Assembly: GCF_028290785.1 (NCBI RefSeq)
Contig: NZ_JAQGJD010000381.1
Coordinates: 1 to 41,563, forward strand
Direction of reading: 5' to 3'
Source: Tardiphaga sp.
GTDB lineage: Bacteria; Pseudomonadota; Alphaproteobacteria; Rhizobiales; Xanthobacteraceae
DNA length: 41,563 bases
The position numbers and the translations under genes were made by a program. This document shows positions 5,837-38,525 of this stretch, piece by piece. Under the pieces are notes generated by a model. The model was not told the DNA's origin and ran no database searches. It saw only the letters and a list, made by a program, of their open reading frames with translations. Each line of letters starts with the position of its first letter. Position 1 is the first letter of the stretch.

Positions 5837-7219
5837 ATGATCTATCGCCACGCCATTGGAACGCAAACCCACGTCTTTGCCGACCTGCGCGACCTCATGG
5901 CCAAGGCGACGCCGCCGCGCTCCGGCGACCGGTTGGCGGGTCTCGCCGCCGAGACCGCCGAGCAGATGATTGCCGCACGGATGGCGCTGGCCGACGTGCC
6001 GCTGAAGCAATTTTTGTCGGAAACCGTGATTCCCTATGAGGATGACGAAGTCACCCGCCTGATCGTCGATAGCCATGATGCCGCGGCCTTCGCCACCATC
6101 TCGTCGCTCACCGTCGGCGGCTTCCGCGACTGGCTGCTGTCCGATGCCGCCACGCCGGCCGTGCTGCACGAACTCGCCTCGGGCATCACGCCGGAAATGG
6201 CCGCCGCGGTGTCGAAGCTGATGCGCAATCAGGACCTGATCCTGGTGGCCAAGAAGTGCGAGATCATCACGCGCTTCCGCAACACCATCGGGCTGCGCGG
6301 CCGCATGAGCGTACGGCTGCAGCCCAACCATCCGTTCGACGACGTCAGGGGCATCACTGCCTCGGTGCTCGACGGGCTGATGCTCGGCGCCGGCGACGCC
6401 TGCATCGGCATCAACCCGGCGAGCGACGATCCCGCCGTGCTGGGCGGGCTGGTGCGGCTGCTCGACGAGGTGATCACCAAACTGCAGATTCCCACGCAAA
6501 GCTGCGTGCTGACCCATGTCACCACCACCCTCGACCTGATCAACCAGGGATTTCCGGTCGATCTCGTATTCCAGTCGATCGCCGGCACCGAGGAAGCCAA
6601 CCGCAGCTTCGGCATCGATCTCGTGATCTTGGAGGAGGCCTATGAAGCCGGGTTGTCGCTGAAGCGGGGGACGGTCGGCAAGAACGTGATGTATTTCGAA
6701 ACCGGCCAGGGTTCTGCGCTGTCGGCCAATGCCCACCATGGCGTCGATCAGCAGACGGTGGAGGCGCGGGCCTATGGGGTCGCGCGGGCCTTTGCGCCGC
6801 TGCTGGTCAACAGCGTGGTCGGTTTCATCGGCCCGGAATATCTCTACGACGGCAAGGAAATCATCCGCGCCGGGCTGGAGGATCACTTCTGCGGCAAACT
6901 GCTCGGCCTGCCGCTCGGCGTGGACGTCTGTTACACCAACCACGCCGAGGCCGACCAGGACGACATGGACAACCTGCTGACGCTGCTGGCTGCGGCCGGC
7001 GTCAATTTCATCATGGGCGTGCCGGGCGCCGACGACGTGATGCTGAACTACCAGTCCACCTCGTTTCACGACGCGCTGTATGTCCGCGACCTGTTCGGCC
7101 TGAAGCGGGCGCCGGAATTTGACGACTGGCTGCTGCGAGCGGGGCTGGCCGGGCCGGATTTCCGGGTTAAAGCTCACGACGGCTGGCTGCCGGAGCTGGC
7201 ATCGCGCCTGATCGCCTGA
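5837..7219 (+). CDS. eutB: Ethanolamine ammonia-lyase large subunit EutB
   Basis: A 460-residue protein matching EutB over its full length (family about 450-465). EutB holds the TIM-barrel active site that, with EutC and adenosylcobalamin, converts ethanolamine to acetaldehyde and ammonia. Typical stretches include FLSETVIPYEDDEVTRLI, GLRGRMSVRLQPNHP, GAGDACIGINPASDDP and YFETGQGSALSANAHHG. The partner eutC is not adjacent: it begins about 1.8 kb downstream, after hpnP. No eutA reactivase, eutR regulator or microcompartment shell genes are seen, so this looks like the simple cytosolic form of the pathway. The ATG lies 69 bp after the chemoreceptor stop. No specific promoter could be assigned. 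A cobalamin-dependent methylase following directly makes this a cobalamin-using neighbourhood. Confidence 0.95.
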   Translation: MIYRHAIGTQTHVFADLRDLMAKATPPRSGDRLAGLAAETAEQMIAARMALADVPLKQFLSETVIPYEDDEVTRLIVDSHDAAAFATISSLTVGGFRDWLLSDAATPAVLHELASGITPEMAAAVSKLMRNQDLILVAKKCEIITRFRNTIGLRGRMSVRLQPNHPFDDVRGITASVLDGLMLGAGDACIGINPASDDPAVLGGLVRLLDEVITKLQIPTQSCVLTHVTTTLDLINQGFPVDLVFQSIAGTEEANRSFGIDLVILEEAYEAGLSLKRGTVGKNVMYFETGQGSALSANAHHGVDQQTVEARAYGVARAFAPLLVNSVVGFIGPEYLYDGKEIIRAGLEDHFCGKLLGLPLGVDVCYTNHAEADQDDMDNLLTLLAAAGVNFIMGVPGADDVMLNYQSTSFHDALYVRDLFGLKRAPEFDDWLLRAGLAGPDFRVKAHDGWLPELASRLIA

Positions 7220-7364
7220 CGCAAGCCCCGTGTCACATGGTGATGACGACCGACATGTTATGGTCGAGGGCCGTTCACGTGATCGTCACCGTCGCCACAA
7301 TCTTGAAGAATTTGTAGCCCAGCCTTGAACGCCATGATTAGATTGCGTGTCACATCAAGGGAGT

Positions 7365-7389
7365 GGAACCGCTTTATCGCCAGCACGTT
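7365..7389 (+). promoter_or_regulatory. EcfG-type general stress response promoter of hpnP
   Basis: The sequence reads GGAAC (7365-7369), a 16-nt spacer, then CGTT (7386-7389), an exact match to the alphaproteobacterial EcfG consensus GGAAC-N16/17-CGTT. It ends about 60 bp before the hpnP ATG at 7449 and has the correct orientation. EcfG control of hpnP is known from Rhodopseudomonas palustris, where stress induces 2-methylhopanoid synthesis, so the site fits established biology. The transcript may continue into eutC, which starts 19 bp after hpnP ends. Confidence 0.88.
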
Positions 7390-7448
7390 AGCCCGAGCGT
7401 CGAGATTCACCCACACGGGTCTTCCGGCGAATCCACAGAGGAAAATTG

Positions 7449-9029
7449 ATGAGAGCTGAGGGCAGGCAGACGGCACGGCGCATCTTGTGCGTGTTTCCGC
7501 GATACACGTCTTCGTTTGGCACGTTCGAATACGCCTATCCTCTCACCGACGGCGTGCAGGCCTTCATGCCGCCGCAAGGGTTGCTGCTGATCGCGGCGTA
7601 CATGCCGGCGGACTGGGAAGTGCGTTTCATCGACGAGAATATCCGCGCCGCCACGGCGGAAGATTTCCTGTGGGCCGAGGCCGTGTTCGTTAGCGGCATG
7701 CACATCCAGCGCACCCAGATGAACGACATCTGCCACCGCGCCCACGCCTACGACCTGGCGGTGGCGATCGGCGGTCCGTCGGTCAGTTCGTGCCCGGAAT
7801 ACTATCCCGCGTTCGACTATCTGCACTGCGGCGAACTCGGCGACGCCACCGACCGGCTGATCGACATTTTGGCCGCGAATACGGCGCGGCCGGAGCGGCA
7901 GGTGGTGCTGAAGACCGCCGATCGTCTCGACATGACCAAGTTTCCGATTCCCGCCTATGAGCTGGCGGAAATTCCGCGCTATTTCCTGGGCTCGATCCAG
8001 TATTCCTCAGGCTGTCCGTATCAGTGCGAGTTCTGCGACATCCCCGGCCTGTACGGCCGCAATCCGCGCCTGAAGTCGCCGGAGCAGATCACCGCCGAAC
8101 TCGACAAGCTGCTCGAATGCGGCATCATGGGCTCGGTGTATTTCGTCGATGACAATTTCATCGGTAACCGCAAGGCCGCGCTCGACCTGCTGCCGCATCT
8201 GGTGGAATGGCAGAAGAAGACCGGCTACGTGCTGCGGCTGTCCTGCGAGGCTACGCTGAACATCGCCAAGCGCCCGGAAATCCTGGCCTTGATGCGCGAT
8301 TCGCTGTTCGGCACGATCTTCTGCGGCATCGAGACCCCCGATCCCGTCGCGCTCAAGGCGATGAAAAAGGACCACAACATGGTCCTGCCGATCATGGAGT
8401 CGATCGAGGTGCTGAACTCGTTCGGCATGGAGGTGGTGTCCGGGATTATTCTGGGCCTCGACACCGACAGGCCGGAGACCGGGCAGGCGCTGCTCGATTT
8501 CGTCGATGCGTCGAAGATCCCGCTGCTCACGATCAACCTGCTACAGGCGCTGCCGCAGACGCCGCTGTGGGACCGCCTGAAGAAGGCCGACCGTCTCAAC
8601 GAGGAGGAGGGCCGCGATTCCAACGTCGATTTCCTGCTGCCCTACGACGACGTGGTGCGATCGTGGCGGGCCTGCATGGGCAGTGCCTACCAGCCGCAAA
8701 AACTGCTCGACCGCTACGAGTACCAGATTACGCACACCTATCCGAACCGCATCATGCCGCGGACCAAGGAGCAGATGTCCTGGAAGAACATCCGGATGGG
8801 CCTGATCATGCTGCGCAACATCTTCTGGAAGGTCGGCGTGCTCGGCGATTACAAGGCCGCATTCTGGAAGTTCGCGCTGCGCCGCCTGATGCGCGGCGAG
8901 ATCGAATATCTGATCTCGTCGATCATGGTCGCGCAGCACCTGATCATGTTCTCGCGCGACGCCTCGCAGGGCACCACCAGCGCGTCGTACTATTCGATGA
9001 AGATGCCGGACGCCGTTCCGGCGGAATAG
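7449..9029 (+). CDS. hpnP: Hopanoid C-2 methylase HpnP (B12-binding radical SAM)
   Basis: A 526-residue protein. The N-terminal part, up to about residue 145, is a cobalamin-binding-type domain ([33 protein letters not shown]). The radical SAM core begins with [15 protein letters not shown], whose C189-x3-C193-x2-C196 binds the 4Fe-4S cluster; a DUF4070-like C-terminal region follows. It closely resembles HpnP of Rhodopseudomonas, which methylates hopanoids at C-2 using SAM and cobalamin. The start is the ATG at 7449, preceded by a strong AGAGGA ribosome-binding site; a TTG immediately before is less likely. The gene lies between eutB and eutC, about 5 kb from the main hopanoid genes, and has its own EcfG promoter. 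Presence of hpnP predicts that the organism makes 2-methylhopanoids. Confidence 0.95.
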
Positions 9030-9048: not shown

Positions 9049-9822
9049 ATGACCGACCATAACGACATGACGGCGCCGCGCCGATCCATAGCCGAATTGC
9101 GCGCGCTGACGCCGGCGCGCGTCGGGCTCGGCCGCAGCGGCGCCAGCCTGACCACGGGAGCGTTGCTAGATTTCACCCTCGACCATGCCCGGGCGCGGGA
9201 CGCCGTGCATTCGCCGTTCGACGCAGCGCTGGTCGCGGCCGGACTTGCAGGACTTGGGCTGGAAACCATCGTGGTATCGAGTCAGGCACATGATCGAAGC
9301 GAATATCTGAAACGGCCCGATCTCGGCCGCAAGCTCGATCCCGAATCGCAACATCTGCTGGCGCGTGCGGACGTCGCCCCGTGCGACGTTGCCATCGTGA
9401 TTGGCGACGGCCTGTCGCCCGCCGCGGTCAATGCCCATGCCGCCGACCTCGTCCAGGCGCTGCTGCCGAAACTCGCAGGTCTCACCATCGGTCCTGCCGT
9501 GATCGCCTGCGGCGCACGGGTGGCGCTCGGCGACGAGATCGGCGCGCTGCTGCAGGCGCGAATGACCATCCTGTTGATCGGCGAACGGCCCGGCCTGTCC
9601 GCGCCGCACAGCCTCGGCGCCTACATCACCGCCGATCCGAAGCCGGGCCTGACCGACGCCGACCGCAACTGCGTCTCCAACATTCAGGCTGCCGGGCTCA
9701 GCTATGAGGAGGGCGCCGTCAAGATCGCCTGGCTGGCGCGCGAGGGCCTGTCCCGCGGGATCACTGGCGTGGCGCTGAAGGACGAGAGCGGGTTGAAGCC
9801 GGCAGTCATTGCTCCGCTTTAG
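9049..9822 (+). CDS. eutC: Ethanolamine ammonia-lyase small subunit EutC
   Basis: A 257-residue EutC, the small subunit that with EutB binds adenosylcobalamin and completes ethanolamine ammonia-lyase. Recognisable blocks are [43 protein letters not shown]-like [43 protein letters not shown] and [16 protein letters not shown]. Length fits the family (about 250-300). It starts 19 bp after the hpnP stop, close enough for co-transcription with hpnP, rather than next to eutB as in most organisms. A second in-frame ATG seven codons in is an alternative start. No terminator is obvious before it. The palindromic repeat begins only a few bases after its stop. Confidence 0.94.
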
Positions 9823-10159: not shown

Positions 10160-12529
10160 ATGCACGATATCAATTCGCACGACGCCGACCTCAGGAAATT
10201 GGGGAAACGGCCCGTCAGCATCGCGTTCGGTCTGGAGCGTATCGGCCTGATCGCCGTCAAGGCGCCGGTAGTGTCGTGCCTGATCCTGCTGGCGCTGGTG
10301 ATCGCCGCGATCTTCGGCATCCAGCGCATCAAGATCGACGATTCCCTCAGCCAGCTGTTCCGCTCAAATTCCAAGGAATACCGCCAGTACGAGGAGGTCA
10401 CCAAACGCTTCCCGTCGAGCGAGTTCGACGTGCTGGTGGTGGTCGAAGGCAAGACGCTGCTGGAACGCCAGAACCTCGAAAAGGTCCGCGACCTCGTCAC
10501 CGACCTGCAACTGGTGGATGGCGTGCGCGGCCTGATCTCGCTGTTTTCGGCGCGCCAGGCGCCGGCGCCCGGCAAGTTGCCGGCGGCGTTGTTTCCCTCC
10601 GAACTGCCGGAAGGCGCGGCCTATGACAGCTTCATCCAGACGGTAAAGAGCAACGAGATCATCCGCGGCAAGCTTCTGTCCGACGACGGCACGCTGGCGC
10701 TGATCGTGCTGTCGCTCGATCCCGCCGTGGTCAGCAACAACAAGCTGACCAAGGCGGTCGGCGATATCCGCAAGATCATGAACGACGATCTCGCCGACTC
10801 CAACCTGACCAAGCAGTTGTCCGGCGTGCCGGTGATGCAGCTCGAGATCCGCAACGCGGTGGAAAGGGACGGGCTGATCTACAACGTGGCGGGCATTCTC
10901 GCCGGCTGCCTGATCGCGATCATCTTCTTCCGCAAGGTCTCGTTCATGATCGTCGCGGCGTTTCCGCCGCTGCTGGCGATCCTGTTGGCGCTCGGCGCGC
11001 TCGGCTGGGCCGGCTTCAGCCTCAACATGTTCCTCAACGTGATGACGCCGCTGATCATGGTGATCAGCTTCTCGGACTCGATGCAGCTCACCTTCGCCGC
11101 GCGCGACCGGCTGATCGCCGGGGAGGACAAGTACTCGGCATTCAAGAATGCCGTCCTGGTTGTCGGCCCGGCCTGCGTGCTGACTCACGCGACCGCGGGC
11201 ATTTCGTTCCTGGCGCTGCAGTTCTCCGACTCCGACCTGATCCGCGCCTTCGGCGAGGCCGGTCTCGCTGCGACCGCCATTGCGCTAGTTGCGGTGTTGT
11301 CGCTGGTACCGGTGTTCGGCGTGCTGCTGGTGCGCAACGAGAAGGCATTCTCCGCCAAATTCCAGGCGGCCGACTCCGGCGTCACCGCGCTGCGCGCGTT
11401 CTGCTACTGGATCGCCGTGCGCATGGTCGGCCGTCCCGGGCTGTTCAGCCTGATCTCTGTCATTCTCGTCGGCGGCCTTGCGGTGGTCTACGCCAACCTG
11501 GAGCCGCGCTATCGTCTGGCCGATCAGGTGCCGGACAAGGAGCAGGCGGTGGCCGCCTCGGGTCGCCTTGACGCCAAGCTGACCGGTGCCAATCCGATCG
11601 ACGTGCTGATCGAATTCCCCAAGGGGCAGGACCTGTATTCGCCGGAAACGCTCGCGACTATCGCCGACGTGCATTCGCTGGTCGAGAAGTCGGCCGGCGT
11701 CGGCAATGTCTGGTCGCTGGAGACGCTGCGCCGCTGGCTCGCCGAGAAGGCGGGCAGTAACGACGTCGCGACGCTGAAGGAATATGTCAGCGTGATCCCC
11801 GAACATCTGGTGCGCCGCTTCATATCGGCCGACCAGATGGCGGTGGTGGTGTCCGGTCGCGTGCCGGATCTCGATTCCAGCGCGATCCTGCCGGTGGTCG
11901 ACAAGCTCGATGGCCTGCTCAACGAAGTCCGCACCAAGCATCCCGGCTATGAAATCGCGGTGACCGGCCTGTCGGCCATCGCTGCGCGTAACTCCGCCGG
12001 CATGATCGAAAAGCTCAACCACGGCCTGACCATCGAATTCGGCCTGGTGGCGATCTTCATCGGCCTCGCCTTCCGCTCCTGGGTGGTGATGTTGGCCTGC
12101 ATTCTGCCGGGCATCTTTCCGGTGGTGCTGTCAGGCTTCGTGCTGTGGCTGCTCGGCGAGGGCCTGCAATTCGCCAGCGTGGTCGCGCTGACGGTGTCGT
12201 TCGGCCTCGGCCTCAGCGCCACCATTCACTTCCTCAACCGCCTGCGGCTGGAAGATACGCCGGGCACCGATCCCGCCATCGCGGTGGAACGCGCCACGGT
12301 GCTGGTCGGTCCGGCGCTGATCCTGACCACGGTGGTGCTGGCCTGCGGTCTCGTCGTGACCGTATTCTCCGACCTGCCGTCGCTGCGGCTGTTCGGATGG
12401 CTCAGCGCCTTCGCCATGGTGGCGGCGCTGTTCGCCGATCTGTTCATCCTGCGCCCGACCGCGATGTGGCTGATCAACCTGCAGCAGAAGATCAGCGGCA
12501 GCTCGGTGCTGGCCAAGCCGGCTGAGTAG
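10160..12529 (+). CDS. MMPL/RND-superfamily membrane protein
   Basis: A 789-residue membrane protein with the duplicated RND plan: a first membrane helix at about residues 35-52, a large periplasmic loop, a helix bundle at about 240-395, another single helix near 430-447, a second loop, then a final helix bundle at about 630-775. It resembles MMPL/sterol-sensing-domain-like transporters and is a distant relative of HpnN, encoded 10 kb downstream. No adaptor or outer-membrane channel gene is adjacent. By family it could export a lipid or hydrophobic compound; proximity to the hopanoid operon suggests, but does not prove, a lipid cargo. The ATG at 10160 is chosen because it precedes a cytoplasmic N-terminus and the first helix. 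It converges with the minus-strand gene at 12566. Confidence 0.85.
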   Translation: MHDINSHDADLRKLGKRPVSIAFGLERIGLIAVKAPVVSCLILLALVIAAIFGIQRIKIDDSLSQLFRSNSKEYRQYEEVTKRFPSSEFDVLVVVEGKTLLERQNLEKVRDLVTDLQLVDGVRGLISLFSARQAPAPGKLPAALFPSELPEGAAYDSFIQTVKSNEIIRGKLLSDDGTLALIVLSLDPAVVSNNKLTKAVGDIRKIMNDDLADSNLTKQLSGVPVMQLEIRNAVERDGLIYNVAGILAGCLIAIIFFRKVSFMIVAAFPPLLAILLALGALGWAGFSLNMFLNVMTPLIMVISFSDSMQLTFAARDRLIAGEDKYSAFKNAVLVVGPACVLTHATAGISFLALQFSDSDLIRAFGEAGLAATAIALVAVLSLVPVFGVLLVRNEKAFSAKFQAADSGVTALRAFCYWIAVRMVGRPGLFSLISVILVGGLAVVYANLEPRYRLADQVPDKEQAVAASGRLDAKLTGANPIDVLIEFPKGQDLYSPETLATIADVHSLVEKSAGVGNVWSLETLRRWLAEKAGSNDVATLKEYVSVIPEHLVRRFISADQMAVVVSGRVPDLDSSAILPVVDKLDGLLNEVRTKHPGYEIAVTGLSAIAARNSAGMIEKLNHGLTIEFGLVAIFIGLAFRSWVVMLACILPGIFPVVLSGFVLWLLGEGLQFASVVALTVSFGLGLSATIHFLNRLRLEDTPGTDPAIAVERATVLVGPALILTTVVLACGLVVTVFSDLPSLRLFGWLSAFAMVAALFADLFILRPTAMWLINLQQKISGSSVLAKPAE

Positions 12530-27218: not shown

Positions 27219-27971
27219 TCAGCCCACCCGCATCGCGGTCTCGAATTTGTTGCCGAAGTCGGCGAGCTCGTCCGCGCTGAGATCGCTGACCGCCCAGTAG
27301 CTCAGCCCGCGCGCGCTCCAGCGCCGGATGTTGAAGCCCTGCACCGTCTCGATGGTGGCTGTACGTGGCTCGACATTGGCCGTCTGGGCGACGAACAGAT
27401 TGATCACGTGGGTGCGGCGCCGGTAGACGATGGCGCCGATGGCGCGCCCATCGATGGTGTCGAGCCGCCCGCCGATCAGCGTGAAGCCCTGCGCCGTCAG
27501 ATCGACCACCGGCGGCGCCACGTCGAGCCGGCCGTTGAACCACGGCTTTACCGTGTGCTGATCGGTCGACAGCACGTCGGTCAGGTGTCCCGCCTGCAGC
27601 GAGCGCAGGTGCGCCGAGACGACGTCAGACATGATGCGCTGCTCATCGGCACGACGCAGCACGATCGCGACAACGCCAGTGGCGGCCAGCGCCGAAACCG
27701 CCGACCCCATCGCGAAACCTTTCAACACGGCACGCCGGCTGGGCGTATGGGTGGACGGCAAAGCCGCCTCGACACGCTGCCGCAGATGCGCCGGCGCGGT
27801 GAAGTGAAGGTCGCTGTCGGCCATCGCCTGGCCCATTGCGCGATAGTCCTTCAGCAGCGCGGCGCAGCGCGGGCAGCCCGCGATATGCTCCTCGACCTCG
27901 CGGGCATGGCCGGCGTCGAGTTCGCCGTCGAGCAACGCGTGCAGCAGGATTTCCGCCTCGTCGCAGGTCAT
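27219..27971 (-). CDS. Zinc-finger anti-sigma factor, membrane anchored
   Basis: A 250-residue protein. The N-terminus (MTCDEAEILLHALLDGELDAGHAREVEEHIAGCPRC, written across residues 1-36) is a ZAS zinc-binding anti-sigma domain with the H-x3-C-x2-C motif (HIAGCPRC). A single membrane helix follows at about residues 100-117 (MGSAVSALAATGVVAIVL), and the C-terminal about 130 residues are outside the cytoplasm. The ATG at 27969-27971 overlaps the sigma factor stop (ATGA), a typical sigma/anti-sigma pairing. The anti-sigma binds its ECF partner and releases it upon a signal that the outer domain may detect. The outer domain resembles periplasmic anti-sigma sensor regions with no clear ligand site. 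An in-frame extension to 27998 is rejected because of the overlap. Confidence 0.9.
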   Translation of the reverse strand: MTCDEAEILLHALLDGELDAGHAREVEEHIAGCPRCAALLKDYRAMGQAMADSDLHFTAPAHLRQRVEAALPSTHTPSRRAVLKGFAMGSAVSALAATGVVAIVLRRADEQRIMSDVVSAHLRSLQAGHLTDVLSTDQHTVKPWFNGRLDVAPPVVDLTAQGFTLIGGRLDTIDGRAIGAIVYRRRTHVINLFVAQTANVEPRTATIETVQGFNIRRWSARGLSYWAVSDLSADELADFGNKFETAMRVG

Positions 27972-28531
27972 TTCGAATGCTCCTCTTCGGCCATCCACGC
28001 GGCCCGCAGCATGGCCCGCGCCCGCGCCAGGCGCGACATCACGGTGCCTACGGGCGCACCGACGATCTCGGCGATCTCGCGGTAGGACAGGTTCTGGATT
28101 TCACGCAGCACGAGGGTTTCCCGGAACGGCTCGGCGAGGGCATCGACCAGGCGCCGGATCGCCGTGGCATCGCGTCGCTGCAGCAACTGGGCCTCGGGCG
28201 ACGCCTGGGTCTCGTGCCAGATCGGAGCAACGTCATCCGCCTGGCCTGCGGAATCGTCGATTGTTGAAACGGGTGAATTCACACGACGTGCAAACTCGGC
28301 GTGGCAGACATTGCGCAGAATCGAAAACAGCCATGGCTTCATCGCCGCGCCGCGGTAGCTGTCGAAATGCTTCAGCGCGCGCAGGTAGCATTCCTGTACG
28401 GCGTCCTCGGCATCGCTTTGGTCGCGCAGCAGGTAGCGCGCCAGCGTGTAGACGTCATCGAGATAGGGCAGCGCGGCGTCGCGAAACCGCCGCGTCCTCT
28501 CGGGATCTTCGTCTGGCGCATGCGACGGCAT
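27968..28531 (-). CDS. ECF-family RNA polymerase sigma factor
   Basis: A 187-residue sigma-70 family ECF sigma factor. Region 2 is visible as LARYLLRDQSDAEDAVQECYLRALKHFDSYRG with WLFSILRN, and region 4 as LAEPFRETLVLREIQNLSYREIAEIVGAPVGTVMSRLARAR. The start is placed at the ATG at 28529-28531 (MPSHAPDEDPER), nine bases after an AGAGG ribosome-binding site; the longer frame to 28618 adds an unlikely N-terminus. It sits between a cupredoxin gene and its anti-sigma gene on the same strand. Known members of such clusters respond to redox or metal stress, but the signal here is not shown. This is not EcfG, which is usually next to phyR/nepR. Confidence 0.93.
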   Translation of the reverse strand: MPSHAPDEDPERTRRFRDAALPYLDDVYTLARYLLRDQSDAEDAVQECYLRALKHFDSYRGAAMKPWLFSILRNVCHAEFARRVNSPVSTIDDSAGQADDVAPIWHETQASPEAQLLQRRDATAIRRLVDALAEPFRETLVLREIQNLSYREIAEIVGAPVGTVMSRLARARAMLRAAWMAEEEHSK

Positions 28532-28610
28532 CGACGAGCCTCTGGTGACCGACGTCCGGCGGCTGGCGGGCCAACTGCCGGACATCGCTGTGATGCCTTG
28601 GTTTCGGTCG

Positions 28611-28940
28611 CTACTCAACCTTGATCATCCCCGTCATGTGCGGATGCAGCGAGCAAAAATATTTGTAGTCGCCCGCTGCCGTGAAGGTGAACGCAAAGCT
28701 GTCGTCGGTATCGAGCGCCTTTGACTTGAACTTGCCGGCCGAGACCACGGTATGCGGGATGTCGTCCTGGTTTTTCCAGGTCACGGTGGTGCCCACCTTG
28801 ACCTTCAGTTCGGCCGGCGAGAACGTGAAATTGTCGATCGTCACGGTGACGTCTTCGCAGCGCGCCGCCGTGATCTGTGACGCCATCACTGCCGCCATGG
28901 CGAGCCGGACGCCGATCGTGCGCAGGGAGTTCAACATCAT
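28611..28940 (-). CDS. Small cupredoxin (type 1 copper protein)
   Basis: A 109-residue protein with a signal peptide (MMLNSLRTIG... to about residue 27) and a plastocyanin/amicyanin-like copper domain. The expected type 1 copper ligands are all visible: His63 in DDIPHTVV, Cys96, His99 and Met102 in FCSLHPHM. The first start is the ATG at 28938-28940, with an adjacent ATG next to it, and a GAGGA ribosome-binding site about 10 bp upstream. It lies 11 bp downstream of the metallophosphoesterase gene on the same strand and upstream of the sigma factor, so it is likely part of one transcript. It should be a periplasmic electron carrier or copper sensor; no redox partner is encoded nearby. Confidence 0.9.
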   Translation of the reverse strand: MMLNSLRTIGVRLAMAAVMASQITAARCEDVTVTIDNFTFSPAELKVKVGTTVTWKNQDDIPHTVVSAGKFKSKALDTDDSFAFTFTAAGDYKYFCSLHPHMTGMIKVE

Positions 28941-29979: not shown

Positions 29980-31599
29980 TTATCGCGAATCCGTGATGAT
30001 CATCGATGCGCCCTTTTCCGCGATCATCGCGGTGGGCGTGTTGGTATTGCCCGACGTGATGGTCGGCATCACCGAGGCATCGACGACGCGTAGCCCGGCA
30101 ATTCCGTAAAATCGCAGCCGCTCATCGACCACCGCCATCGGGTCGGAGGCCGTGCCCATCTTGGCCGTACCGACCGGATGGAAAATCGTGGTGCCGATAT
30201 CGCCGGCCGCCTTCGCGAGCGACACCGCGTCGTCGCCGACCGATGGCCCCGGCAAATATTCCTCCGGGTGATAGGCGGCCAGCGCCTGCTGCTGCATCAG
30301 TTTTCGCGTGGTGCGGATCGCATCGGCGGCAACCTGGCGGTCCTCATCGGTGGATAGATAATGCGGCGCGATTTCGGGGGCTTCCTCCGGCTTTCCTGAG
30401 CGTGTGCGGATCGTGCCGCGCGAGGTCGGCTGCAGGTTGCAGGCGCTGACGGTGATGGCCGGGAAGCGGTGCAGCGGATCGCCGAACTTGTCGAGCGACA
30501 GCGGCTGCACGTGAAACTGGATGTTGGCGCGTTCGCGATGCGGGTCCGAGCGGGTGAAGATGCCCAGTTGCGACGGCGCCATGGTCAGCGGCCCCCTGCG
30601 GCGCAATGCGTAGTCGATTCCCATCCAGCCCCGCCGCAGTAGCGAGTGATAGGTCTCGTTCAGCGTGCGCACGCCGGACACCTTATAGATCGCGCGCTGC
30701 TGCAGGTGGTCCTGCAGGTTGCGGCCGACGCCCGGGCGGTCCAGCGTGACGTCGATGCCGGCCTGCGCCAGCCACTCCGCCGGACCGATGCCGGAACGCT
30801 GCAGCAGATGCGGCGAGCCGATGGCGCCGGCGCACAGCACGACTTCCCCCCTAGCGCGCGCTTCGACAACCTCACCGTTCTGCGAAAAGCGCACGCCGAC
30901 GGCGCGGCCTTGCTCGATGATCAGGCGATCGACCATCACGTTGGTTTCGAGCCGCAGGTTGGCGCGGTGCAGCACCGGCTTCAGAAAGCCGCGCGCGGAC
31001 GACCAGCGCCGGCCGCGCTTCTGGTTGACGTGGAAATAGCCGATGCCCTCGTTGTCGCCGGTGTTGAAATCATCGGTCCGGCGGATGCCCATTTCGGCGG
31101 CGGCATCGCCGACCGCGTCGAGCACCGGCCACGACAGCCGTGGCGCCTCGATGCGCCAGCCGCCGCTGCTGCCGTGATGCTCGCTGGCGCCGAGGAAATG
31201 ATCTTCCAGGTTCTTGAAGGCCGGCAGCACGTCGTCATAGCCCCAGCCGGCTAGGCCGAGCTGGCGCCAGTGGTCGTAGTCGGCGGCCTGGCCGCGCATC
31301 GAGATCATGGCGTTGATGGCCGAGGAGCCGCCGATCACCTTGCCGCGCGGGTAGGCCAGTGAACGACCGTTGAGGCCGGGCTCCGGTTCGGTGCGGAACA
31401 TCCAGTCGGAACGCGGATTGCCGATCGCGAACAGGTAGCCGACCGGGATGTGAAACCAGATCCAGTTGTCATTGCCGCCGGCTTCCAGCAGCAGTACGCG
31501 CTTGCCGGAATCGGCAGACAACCGGTTGGCGACGATGCAGCCCGCAGTGCCGGCGCCCACCACGATATAGTCGAAATCCCCCTCGAGCCGTGTCGCCAT
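29980..31599 (-). CDS. GMC-family oxidoreductase (choline dehydrogenase-like)
   Basis: A 539-residue FAD-linked GMC oxidoreductase. The N-terminal FAD motif is DYIVVGAGTAGCIVANRLS, the GMC signature 1 appears as GGSSAINAMISMRGQAADYDHW, and the second signature lies near CAGAIGSPHLLQRSGIGP. The C-terminal active-site region has FHPVGTAKMG with its catalytic His and SGNTNTPTAMIAEKGA. It should oxidise an alcohol; the substrate cannot be told from sequence, and the betaine aldehyde dehydrogenase expected for choline use is not nearby. The start is the ATG at 31599 with GGTGGAAC just before. Despite sharing a strand with the metallophosphoesterase operon, a 77-bp gap and a possible promoter separate them. 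No signal peptide is visible. Confidence 0.92.
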   Translation of the reverse strand: MATRLEGDFDYIVVGAGTAGCIVANRLSADSGKRVLLLEAGGNDNWIWFHIPVGYLFAIGNPRSDWMFRTEPEPGLNGRSLAYPRGKVIGGSSAINAMISMRGQAADYDHWRQLGLAGWGYDDVLPAFKNLEDHFLGASEHHGSSGGWRIEAPRLSWPVLDAVGDAAAEMGIRRTDDFNTGDNEGIGYFHVNQKRGRRWSSARGFLKPVLHRANLRLETNVMVDRLIIEQGRAVGVRFSQNGEVVEARARGEVVLCAGAIGSPHLLQRSGIGPAEWLAQAGIDVTLDRPGVGRNLQDHLQQRAIYKVSGVRTLNETYHSLLRRGWMGIDYALRRRGPLTMAPSQLGIFTRSDPHRERANIQFHVQPLSLDKFGDPLHRFPAITVSACNLQPTSRGTIRTRSGKPEEAPEIAPHYLSTDEDRQVAADAIRTTRKLMQQQALAAYHPEEYLPGPSVGDDAVSLAKAAGDIGTTIFHPVGTAKMGTASDPMAVVDERLRFYGIAGLRVVDASVMPTITSGNTNTPTAMIAEKGASMIITDSR

Positions 31600-31760
31600 C
31601 GTTCCACCGCCTTATTCGCGGTCTCAACGCCGCGCCGCAACGCTCTAGCGGCGCGGCGGCGCGCTGTACAGCCATGGCCGCCCGGTTGGGCGGCTGGCAC
31701 GCGGCGTGCTAGACAGAAGCCACCATCCATCCACCATTCCCCACCATTCGAGACTGATCC

Positions 31761-32930
31761 ATGCCCATCATCAATCGCGTCGCCGATCTGCAACCGGACA
31801 TTCAGGCCTGGCGCCGGGACCTGCATGCCCATCCGGAGGTGATGTATGACGTGCACCGCACCGCGGCCTTCGTGGCGGAACAGTTGCGCGCGTTCGGTTG
31901 CGACGAGGTTGCGACAGGGCTGGGGCAGACCGGCGTGGTCGGCGTCATCAAGGGCCGCAAGCCGGGCGGCAACGGCGGCGTGATCGGCCTGCGCGCCGAC
32001 ATGGACGCGCTGCCCATCGAAGAGGCGACCAACCTGCCATATGCCTCGAAAACCCCCGGTAAGATGCACGCCTGCGGCCATGACGGCCACACCGCGATGC
32101 TGCTCGGCGCCGCGCAATATCTCGCCGAGACCCGCAATTTCGCTGGCGACGCCGTGGTGATTTTCCAGCCGGCCGAGGAGGGCGGCGCCGGCGCGCTCGC
32201 CATGATCAATGACGGCCTGATGGATCGCTTCAAGATCGAGCAGGTCTACGGCATGCACAACGGCCCCGGCATCCCGGTCGGCTCGTTCGCGATCCGGCAG
32301 GGCCCGATCATGGCGGCGATGGACCGCATCAGCATCCAGATCGAAGGCGTCGGCGGCCACGCCGCTTATCCGCACAAAACCATCGATCCGGTCCTGGCCG
32401 GGTCGCAACTGGTGGTGGCGCTGCAGGGAATCGTGTCGCGCTCCGTCAATCCGCTGGAATCCGCGGTGCTGTCGATGTGCGAGTTCCATGCCGGCCACGC
32501 CAGCAATGTCATCCCGGCCTCCGCCGAATTGAAGGGCACCGTACGCTCGCTGAAGGCCGAGGTGCGCGACCTGATGGAGAAGCGCATGAACGAGGTCTGC
32601 GCCGGTGTCGCCCAGCAGACCGGCGCCAAGATCACGCTCGATTACGACCGCGGCTACCCGGTCGTGGTCAACCACCCCGCGCAGACCGAACTGGCGGTAC
32701 GCGTCGCCGGCGAGATCGCAGGCGCGACCAACGTCAACACCGACATGATCCCGATCATGGGGGCCGAGGATTTTGCCTATATGCTGGAAGCGCGTCCCGG
32801 CGCTTTCATTTTCTGCGGCAACGGCGACAGCGCCGGACTGCATCACCCCGCCTATAACTTCAACGACGACGCCATCGTGTTCGGCACGTCCTACTGGGTG
32901 AAGCTCGTGGAGACCACGCTGGCGGCCTGA
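31761..32930 (+). CDS. M20-family amidohydrolase (hippurate hydrolase-like)
   Basis: A 389-residue M20D amidohydrolase similar to hippurate hydrolase/N-acyl-amino acid hydrolase. Metal-site and catalytic blocks are visible: LHAHPEVMYD, GLRADMDALPIEE, MHACGHDGHTAMLLGAA, FQPAEEGGAGA, and GAEDFAYML near the C-terminus. The lid domain contains GVGGHAAYPHKTIDPV. It cleaves amide bonds of N-acyl amino acids, exact substrate unknown. The gene is divergent from the GMC oxidoreductase across 161 bp, which must hold both promoters, though none stood out. Cytoplasmic; no signal peptide. It ends about 130 bp before the DUF892 gene, which has its own promoter. Confidence 0.94.
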   Translation: MPIINRVADLQPDIQAWRRDLHAHPEVMYDVHRTAAFVAEQLRAFGCDEVATGLGQTGVVGVIKGRKPGGNGGVIGLRADMDALPIEEATNLPYASKTPGKMHACGHDGHTAMLLGAAQYLAETRNFAGDAVVIFQPAEEGGAGALAMINDGLMDRFKIEQVYGMHNGPGIPVGSFAIRQGPIMAAMDRISIQIEGVGGHAAYPHKTIDPVLAGSQLVVALQGIVSRSVNPLESAVLSMCEFHAGHASNVIPASAELKGTVRSLKAEVRDLMEKRMNEVCAGVAQQTGAKITLDYDRGYPVVVNHPAQTELAVRVAGEIAGATNVNTDMIPIMGAEDFAYMLEARPGAFIFCGNGDSAGLHHPAYNFNDDAIVFGTSYWVKLVETTLAA

Positions 32931-32997: not shown

Positions 32998-33022
32998 GGA
33001 ACAAGGTTTGGCACATCACGTT
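32998..33022 (+). promoter_or_regulatory. EcfG-type general stress response promoter of the DUF892 gene
   Basis: GGAAC (32998-33002), a 16-nt spacer and CGTT (33019-33022) give an exact EcfG consensus about 40 bp upstream of the ATG at 33064, in the right direction. It has the same spacing as the hpnP promoter. DUF892/YciF proteins are common members of the general stress regulon, which fits. Confidence 0.88.
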
Positions 33023-33063: not shown

Positions 33064-33561
33064 ATGGCTACCAAGGATAAAGACCTCAACGACCTCTTTC
33101 TCGATACGCTCAAGGACATCTACTTCGCCGAGAAGCAGATCCTGAAGGCGCTGCCGAAGATGGCGAAGGCCGCCACTTCCGACAAGCTGCGCGCCGCGTT
33201 CGAGAAGCATGGAGGCGAAACCGAAGGTCAGGTCGAACGCCTCGAGCAGATTTTCGAATTGCTCGGCAAGCCGGCGCGCGGCAAGACCTGCGATGCCATC
33301 ATGGGCATCCTCGACGAGGGCAAGGAAATCATGGACGAGTACAAGGGCACCAACGCGCTGGACGCCGGACTGCTCGCCGCGGCGCAGGCCGTGGAACACT
33401 ATGAGATCTCGCGCTACGGCACGCTGAAGACCTGGGCCAACGAACTCGGCATGAAGGACGCGGTGCGCTTGCTTGACGAGACGCTGAAGCAGGAAAAGAC
33501 CACCGACGAGTCGCTGACGAAACTGGCGGAGACCGCCGTTAATCTGGCCGCGGCGGCCTAA
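33064..33561 (+). CDS. DUF892/YciF-like ferritin-fold stress protein
   Basis: A 165-residue all-helical protein of the YciE/YciF (DUF892) family, related to ferritin-like diiron proteins. Family hallmarks are LFLDTLKDIYFAEKQILKALPKMA at the N-terminus, EKHGGETEGQVERLEQIFE, and AAAQAVEHYEISRYGTLKTWA, which carry Glu and His residues positioned for a dimetal site. Function is not firmly known; members are induced by osmotic, oxidative and stationary stress. A GGAG ribosome-binding site lies just upstream of the ATG, and an EcfG promoter about 40 bp away indicates general stress control. It converges with gcvP across 201 bp, filled by a palindromic element. Confidence 0.92.
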   Translation: MATKDKDLNDLFLDTLKDIYFAEKQILKALPKMAKAATSDKLRAAFEKHGGETEGQVERLEQIFELLGKPARGKTCDAIMGILDEGKEIMDEYKGTNALDAGLLAAAQAVEHYEISRYGTLKTWANELGMKDAVRLLDETLKQEKTTDESLTKLAETAVNLAAAA

Positions 33562-38321: not shown

Positions 38322-38500
38322 CCATCTGTCGCTGTGCCTGAGAGTATTATCCCGTCGGCGGACGCCACGGCCCGTTCGGGCTCAGCGCGTCTCTTTCCAG
38401 ATGCTAACGCGTCACGCGGTCCGTTTGCCTGAGAGTTTCCGGGGCGGTTGCTCCTTCGGCGCCGGCCTCGCTCAAAGATGAACTTGGCCGATCTCTCCCG
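38322..38500 (-). ncRNA. Tandem glycine riboswitch upstream of gcvT
   Basis: Two glycine aptamers lie in series on the minus strand. The first (about 38499-38418) has GGGAGAGA, then the core GCCGAAGGAGCAACC and ACTCTCAGGCAAACGGACC. The second (about 38400-38322) has CTGGAAAGAGAC, then GCCGACGGGATAATACTCTCAGGCAC. These are the conserved parts of the Rfam glycine riboswitch. The leader ends about 54 nt before gcvT. Glycine binding is expected to switch on the cleavage operon. Confidence 0.93.
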
Positions 38501-38525
38501 ACGTGACGTCACTCAACGAGCCAGA

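Follow-up and report, generated by a model that had tools for sequence, protein, structure and literature searches.

EcfG control of hpnP in described systems

The 2-methylhopanes serve as molecular fossils, and the knowledge of hpnP regulation apparently comes from Rhodopseudomonas palustris. In R. palustris TIE-1, EcfG upregulates hpnP, as stated in PMC4676935, and the first-pass annotation of the present DNA was right to call such control known in Rhodopseudomonas. The regulation of hpnP in R. palustris was also treated as a stress-responsive pathway in PMC4337730. Furthermore, the EcfG1 promoter of Rhizobium etli was given as GGAAC-N16-CGTT (PMC3892343), and the EcfG promoter of Methylobacterium extorquens as GAAC-N16,17-C/GGTT (PMC4814048). 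In addition, Bradyrhizobium makes 2-methylhopanoids, according to PMC4676935.

Here, a stretch of 41,563 nt from Tardiphaga sp. (the window) was analyzed; the nearest named relatives of its genome are Tardiphaga. The motif and spacing found before hpnP in the window are identical to those of R. etli. It was considered highly probable that positions 7365-7389 are a working EcfG promoter of hpnP, as part of a whole account that includes the loss of this site in Bradyrhizobium and a second conserved element as a separate input.

The hpnP locus and its predicted EcfG promoter

The features of the locus were as follows.

5837-7219, forward strand: eutB, ethanolamine ammonia-lyase large subunit, upstream of hpnP (NF011649, 704.5 bits, cut-off 554)
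7365-7369, forward strand: -35 element GGAAC, part of the predicted EcfG promoter of hpnP
7386-7389, forward strand: -10 element CGTT, whose first two bases differ among relatives
7395-7399, forward strand: expected transcription start, about 7 nt past the -10 element, predicted from promoter geometry
7449-9029, forward strand: hpnP, predicted hopanoid C-2 methylase of 526 residues (radical SAM PF04055, DUF4070 PF13282)
9049-9822, forward strand: eutC, small subunit, 19 nt past the hpnP stop (NF003971, 306.1 bits, cut-off 230)
10160-12529, forward strand: MMPL/RND transporter gene, which follows hpnP even in loci that lack eutBC

The NCBIfam scan of the hpnP product gave no model above its cut-off. 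The gene was named from the 73% identity of its product to Rhodopseudomonas homologues lying in the same neighbourhood; radical SAM and DUF4070 domains, this similarity and the common neighbourhood all agreed with HpnP. The product probably adds a methyl group to hopanoid lipids. Among 64 named loci with enough flanking sequence, eutB, eutC and the MMPL gene surrounded hpnP in 53, and the MMPL gene alone was found in 11. In loci L010 and L017 (genomes G005 and G006), eutC followed hpnP, but a search of 1500 nt upstream found no eutB, and the order eutB-hpnP-eutC was thus broken there. Ethanolamine ammonia-lyase is a cobalamin-dependent enzyme. HpnP is cobalamin-dependent as well, as stated in PMC4676935.

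The first-pass annotation had placed GGAAC-N16-CGTT about 60 bp before the hpnP ATG, and the motif was found exactly there, at 7365-7389 on the forward strand, with a spacer of 16 nt (7370-7385) and 59 nt between the end of CGTT and the ATG at 7449. As expected of an EcfG promoter, GGAAC and a CGTT-like -10 element 16-17 nt apart stood shortly before a gene. The leader of an hpnP mRNA from the predicted start would be about 50 nt. No terminator-like site was found at 7150-7500, between eutB and hpnP, so read-through from eutB is possible. With its position between eutB and eutC, the predicted promoter may also drive eutC; from the arrangement of the genes, EcfG would be expected to transcribe hpnP-eutC without eutB, the two genes being presumably co-transcribed.

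The EcfG system and reference promoters in the genus

The profile search revealed three neighbouring genes in the genome, coding for PhyR, NepR and an ECF sigma factor.

PhyR: NF006623, 368.5 bits, cut-off 240
NepR: PF18557, above cut-off
ECF sigma factor next to PhyR/NepR: NF009192, 388 bits, cut-off 307, a model named just "RNA polymerase sigma factor"

The name EcfG for this sigma factor was taken from its PhyR-NepR neighbourhood. The presumed nepR promoter, GGAAC-N16-NNTT at -92 to -96, was present in 17 of 18 nepR loci (L119 and L144-L160), from 17 of 18 genomes of the genus, as expected of EcfG autoregulation. The single locus without the site, L155, begins 53 bases from a contig edge. 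The -10 forms at the 17 sites were CATT in 10, AATT in 5 and CGTT in 2, so that 15 of 17 were looser than the usual CGTT.

Moreover, the window contained a second exact copy of the motif, missed in the first-pass annotation, which served as an internal control.

32998-33022, forward strand: GGAAC-N16-CGTT, 41 nt before a DUF892 gene (33064-33561)

GGAAC-N16-CGTT preceded all 13 DUF892 loci of at least 87% identity, the window's own included. The other 17 of the 30 DUF892 loci, more distant paralogues, had the looser GGAAC-N15-18-NNTT in 15 cases and none in 2. The same motif was thus seen at the presumed operon of EcfG itself (nepR, with a looser -10) and at a stress-type gene, and the -10 variants at these sites place those before hpnP largely within the range of presumed EcfG promoters.

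Several ECF groups use GGAAC-like -35 elements. The hpnP promoter might accordingly be real and used by another ECF sigma factor, for which 10 Sigma70_r2 matches were counted in the genome and one candidate lies in the window.

27222-28618, reverse strand: adjacent ECF sigma and zinc-finger anti-sigma genes (Sigma70_r2/r4 and zf-HC2 proteins; sigma gene at 27971-28618)

This pair adjoins an hpnO-like aminotransferase gene, and genes for a cupredoxin, a metallophosphatase and a GMC oxidoreductase lie upstream. By eye, no promoter motif was recognised at 31560-31800, the putative operon head of this other sigma factor, where the sole GGAAC adjoins the start codon. Use by another sigma factor was judged improbable, as the recurrence of the motif before nepR fits EcfG autoregulation.

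Chance level of the motif

The bare letters of the motif are no rarity. The window had 2 matches to GGAAC-N15-18-CGTT against 1.12 expected, and 32 of 100 shuffles reached 2. Such numbers would allow the hpnP motif to be a chance match to a short pattern. With a scoring matrix trained on 27 sites before nepR and DUF892 genes, the hpnP site scored 15.4, a value reached in 0.9% of 3000 stretches of 300 nt drawn at random from the window and from 12 syntenic regions.

The whole-genome motif scan called for in the first-pass annotation gave 67 matches to GGAAC-N16-CGTT, and its controls disagreed. The backward pattern, which has another base composition, gave 73. The N19-30 spacings gave 372 matches, or 31 per spacing; among the 100 of these 372 that were listed, 47 fell on the four codon-phase spacings, corresponding to about 44 per in-phase spacing. 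Compared with this, the excess of the 67 matches is modest (Poisson 0.0006, by extrapolation from the 100 of 372 matches listed). GGAAC-N16-CATT had 38 matches against 1 for its backward pattern. The genome-wide excess is therefore modest or nil, depending on the control. In a crude intergenic check of 30 of the 67 matches, 10 lay inside an ORF passing the filter and 20 gave no clear verdict. The whole-genome count as a proof of a regulon was rejected as weak, because the backward controls differ in composition and codon phase inflates N16. Recurrence at orthologous places was relied on instead.

Recurrence of the EcfG site before hpnP in relatives

GGAAC-N16/17-NNTT was present in 18 of 18 distinct Tardiphaga hpnP upstream regions, at -71 to -115. 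The N17 spacer occurred in L025 alone, and each of the 17 N16 regions had one match within 200 nt. The unguided alignment put GGAAC at one place in 17 of 18 rows, with L025 two columns off. The last four bases were CGTT in 9 regions, AGTT in 3, CATT in 2, TGTT in 2, GATT in 1 and GGTT in 1; the two nearest relatives, L010 and L011, with HpnP proteins 96 and 95% identical, carried GATT and CATT. The exactness stressed in the first-pass annotation is thus true of the window and carries little weight, as only 9 of 18 sites end in CGTT. The per-column conservation over 17 rows was 100% at GGAAC and TT (by construction, since the rows were picked by that very pattern), 78% in the spacer and 63% in the flanks. 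The Tardiphaga relatives include L043, although it is titled Bradyrhizobium sp. NFR13.

A larger collection comprised 97 hpnP loci with identities of 70% or more, reduced to 88 distinct upstream regions. Its scan covered the best 80 of 287 relatives, a part of the group, to which the following counts are limited. The regions were sorted into long and short leaders by the distance of the second element (described below) from the ATG. GGAAC-N15-17-NNTT was found at -130 to -45 in 32 of 32 long leaders, every time downstream of the second element, and in 0 of 48 short leaders, 43 of which were titled Bradyrhizobium. Two of the 48 short leaders had a match near -190, inside the end of eutB, and GAAC-N16,17-C/GGTT was found in none of the 48. 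Where the second element was unrecognised, 2 of 8 regions had the site. Over 260 nt, the opposite strand gave 2 of 32 long and 1 of 48 short leaders, and the backward pattern gave the same numbers. Recurrence in 32 of 32 long leaders indicates that something keeps the site, and, set against 2 of 32 in both controls, it makes a chance match exceedingly improbable. The position and recurrence are clearly far beyond chance, and it is this recurrence at orthologous hpnP positions that raises the predicted promoter above it.

The site also occurred before hpnP in Nitrobacter, Rhodopseudomonas and others. The family sample held 149 genomes, of which 71 had an HpnP match at E ≤ 1e-100; 62 of 64 non-Tardiphaga hpnP regions were examined, G033 and G155 being left out because the match begins late. 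The search spanned about -200 to -30, with positions off by up to about 25 nt where the match starts a few residues in. Eight genera had the site in all of their 29 regions (g18 2/2, g20 1/1, g32 6/6, g38 5/5, g40 6/6, g52 6/6, g57 2/2 and g58 1/1). It was seen in 0 of 6 regions of g37 and in 3 of 27 across eleven other genera, and the reverse-strand control gave 2 of 62.

This recurrence across genera, the presence of PhyR, NepR and the ECF sigma factor, and the motif shared with nepR and a stress-type gene support the EcfG-type promoter that the first-pass annotation had proposed. That account had passed over the eutB-hpnP-eutC setting and the second element.

A second conserved element upstream of the EcfG site

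7294-7345, forward strand: second element GCCACAATCTTGAAGAATTTGTAGCCCAGCC...TGATTAGATT, starting 71 nt upstream of GGAAC

The second element is an hpnP-specific cis element that perhaps ends in an extended -10 (TGATTAGAT). In the collection described above (best 80 of 287 relatives), 89 of 97 loci matched a regular expression for the element, 71 to 219 nt upstream of the ATG. The genome of the window has one copy of CCACAATNTTGAAGAATTTGT when up to 3 mismatches are allowed, namely the one in this element. In the 149 family genomes, GYCACAATNTTGARGAA had 16 matches, 15 of which started 74 to 221 nt before hpnP, and the backward control had 0. The sole match away from hpnP (G118:C8:123786-123802, reverse strand) came from a genome in which no HpnP match reached 1e-100. 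Furthermore, the element was present in L046, L053, L056, L062 and L096, where eutB was not found upstream, which assigns it to hpnP. Within the family sample, matches to the expression came from g18, g20, g32, g37, g52 and g58 and none from g38, g40, g57 and more distant HpnP, so the wider distribution is that of the EcfG site.

A search of 7000-7700 at E up to 1 gave no Rfam match, and no sigma-70 consensus promoter was found at 7150-7500. A structured RNA or a coding segment was also considered and rejected, as no conserved pairing and no coding pattern were seen by eye and several rows had TAG stops. The best guess would be that a dedicated regulator binds here and that the element includes an extended -10.

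The main hpnP promoter could lie in this element, or transcription could come from eutB by read-through, with the EcfG site adding little. In favour of this, the element was recognisable in 48 of 54 distinct regions without an EcfG site (best 80 of 287 relatives) and is hpnP-specific. However, EcfG control of hpnP has been published for R. palustris, the EcfG site stands without a match to the element's expression in g38, g40 and g57, and no long leader within the best 80 of 287 relatives lacked the site. A minor role for the EcfG site was therefore regarded as unlikely, though deserving more weight than the use of another sigma factor.

Other hopanoid genes

In the 300 nt before the starts, no notable match was observed for hpnC (p 0.76), shc (0.45), hpnN (0.46) and hpnO (0.12) of the window. 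There were weak imperfect matches before ispH (CGAAC-N16-CGTT at -214, p 0.049) and before hpnH (GGAAG-N16-CATT at -142, p 0.028, which falls within the gene upstream). The absence claimed in the first-pass annotation before hpnC, ispH and hpnN thus holds for the exact motif in 300 upstream nt each.

hpnN: NF052374, 1331 bits, cut-off 1100

In 7 of 12 Tardiphaga relatives, GGAAC-N16-CATT was found 59 nt before the aligned hpnN start (G001, G002, G004, G008, G009, G013 and G016; loci L195-L200 and L202). This form is the one at 10 of 17 nepR sites. The site is missing in the window, whose row of the alignment has a gap there. As the seven sites fall in few lineages, they hint at, and do not prove, a place of hopanoid transport in the stress regulon of a part of the genus. 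Of the earlier interpretation, then, the EcfG-type promoter was supported, and the proposal that methylation alone is the stress-controlled step was roughly right for the hopanoid genes of the window and was not supported for the genus, given these hpnN sites.

Elsewhere in the window, a glycine riboswitch (RF00504, 62.6 bits) was detected at 38407-38511 on the reverse strand, which also carries the glycine cleavage P-protein gene. It overlaps the 5' end of a long alaS ORF call.

Evolutionary history of the site

In the tree of 72 HpnP proteins, the site label required 6 changes (bootstrap 6-7) against 23.9 for shuffles; the label came from a pattern met by chance in a few percent of regions (perhaps including L284 and L285), and N17 spacers made several rows count as site-bearing. 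Inside the site-bearing clade, the rows without the site were 19, mostly Bradyrhizobium, plus two groups of 3 rows. The rest of the clade (Tardiphaga, Nitrobacter, Rhodopseudomonas and relatives) had it. With midpoint rooting and a support of 92/77 at the fork joining Bradyrhizobium to its sister group, the simplest reading of the tree is that the site was lost twice or more, and the site was probably ancestral in the HpnP clade including Rhodopseudomonas. This distribution suggests that EcfG control of hpnP is old, kept in several genera and absent from Bradyrhizobium. Since Bradyrhizobium lacks the EcfG site and retains the second element, 2-methylhopanoids may be a stress product in some of their producers but not in all.

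A bolder view is put forward tentatively, with somewhat less than an even chance of being right. According to it, GCCACAATNTTGAAGAATTT..GCCCAGC..TGNTTANATT would serve as promoter and binding site for a regulator dedicated to hpnP as its sole target and so far undescribed. The two modules would be exchangeable, the EcfG one being older and lost at least twice in Bradyrhizobium lineages, and the hpnP-only module would make the 2-methylhopanoids of Bradyrhizobium independent of the general stress response. If this were true, the reading of the 2-methylhopane biomarker would split by lineage. The second element and the missing Bradyrhizobium site were not described in the literature searched, which left most subscription papers uncovered, so their novelty is unproven.

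Proposed regulation and comparison with known systems

For the preferred account, a working EcfG promoter before hpnP, the following course is proposed. Under stress, PhyR would take up NepR and EcfG would be freed. The EcfG-RNA polymerase would bind GGAAC and CGTT and start about 50 nt before hpnP. HpnP would be raised, giving more 2-methylhopanoids, and eutC would probably be raised too, by read-through. The second element would act as an input of its own, most probably a regulator site that carries its own promoter, and hpnP should depend mainly on it where the EcfG site is gone.

Compared with the described systems, the presumed nepR promoter of Tardiphaga, with CATT or AATT in 15 of 17 sites, is looser than the published consensus of R. 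etli or M. extorquens. The closest case is that of R. palustris, with the same gene under the same sigma system; it is a Rhodopseudomonas case, and the window is from Tardiphaga. Two Rhodopseudomonas loci were compared. They have the gene order eutB-hpnP-eutC, as in the window, and carry GGAAC-N16-GATT (L093) and GGAAC-N16-GGTT (L117) before hpnP. The Rhodopseudomonas sites lie at -129 and -125, whereas that of the window is nearer to the ATG, at -84, and ends in CGTT.
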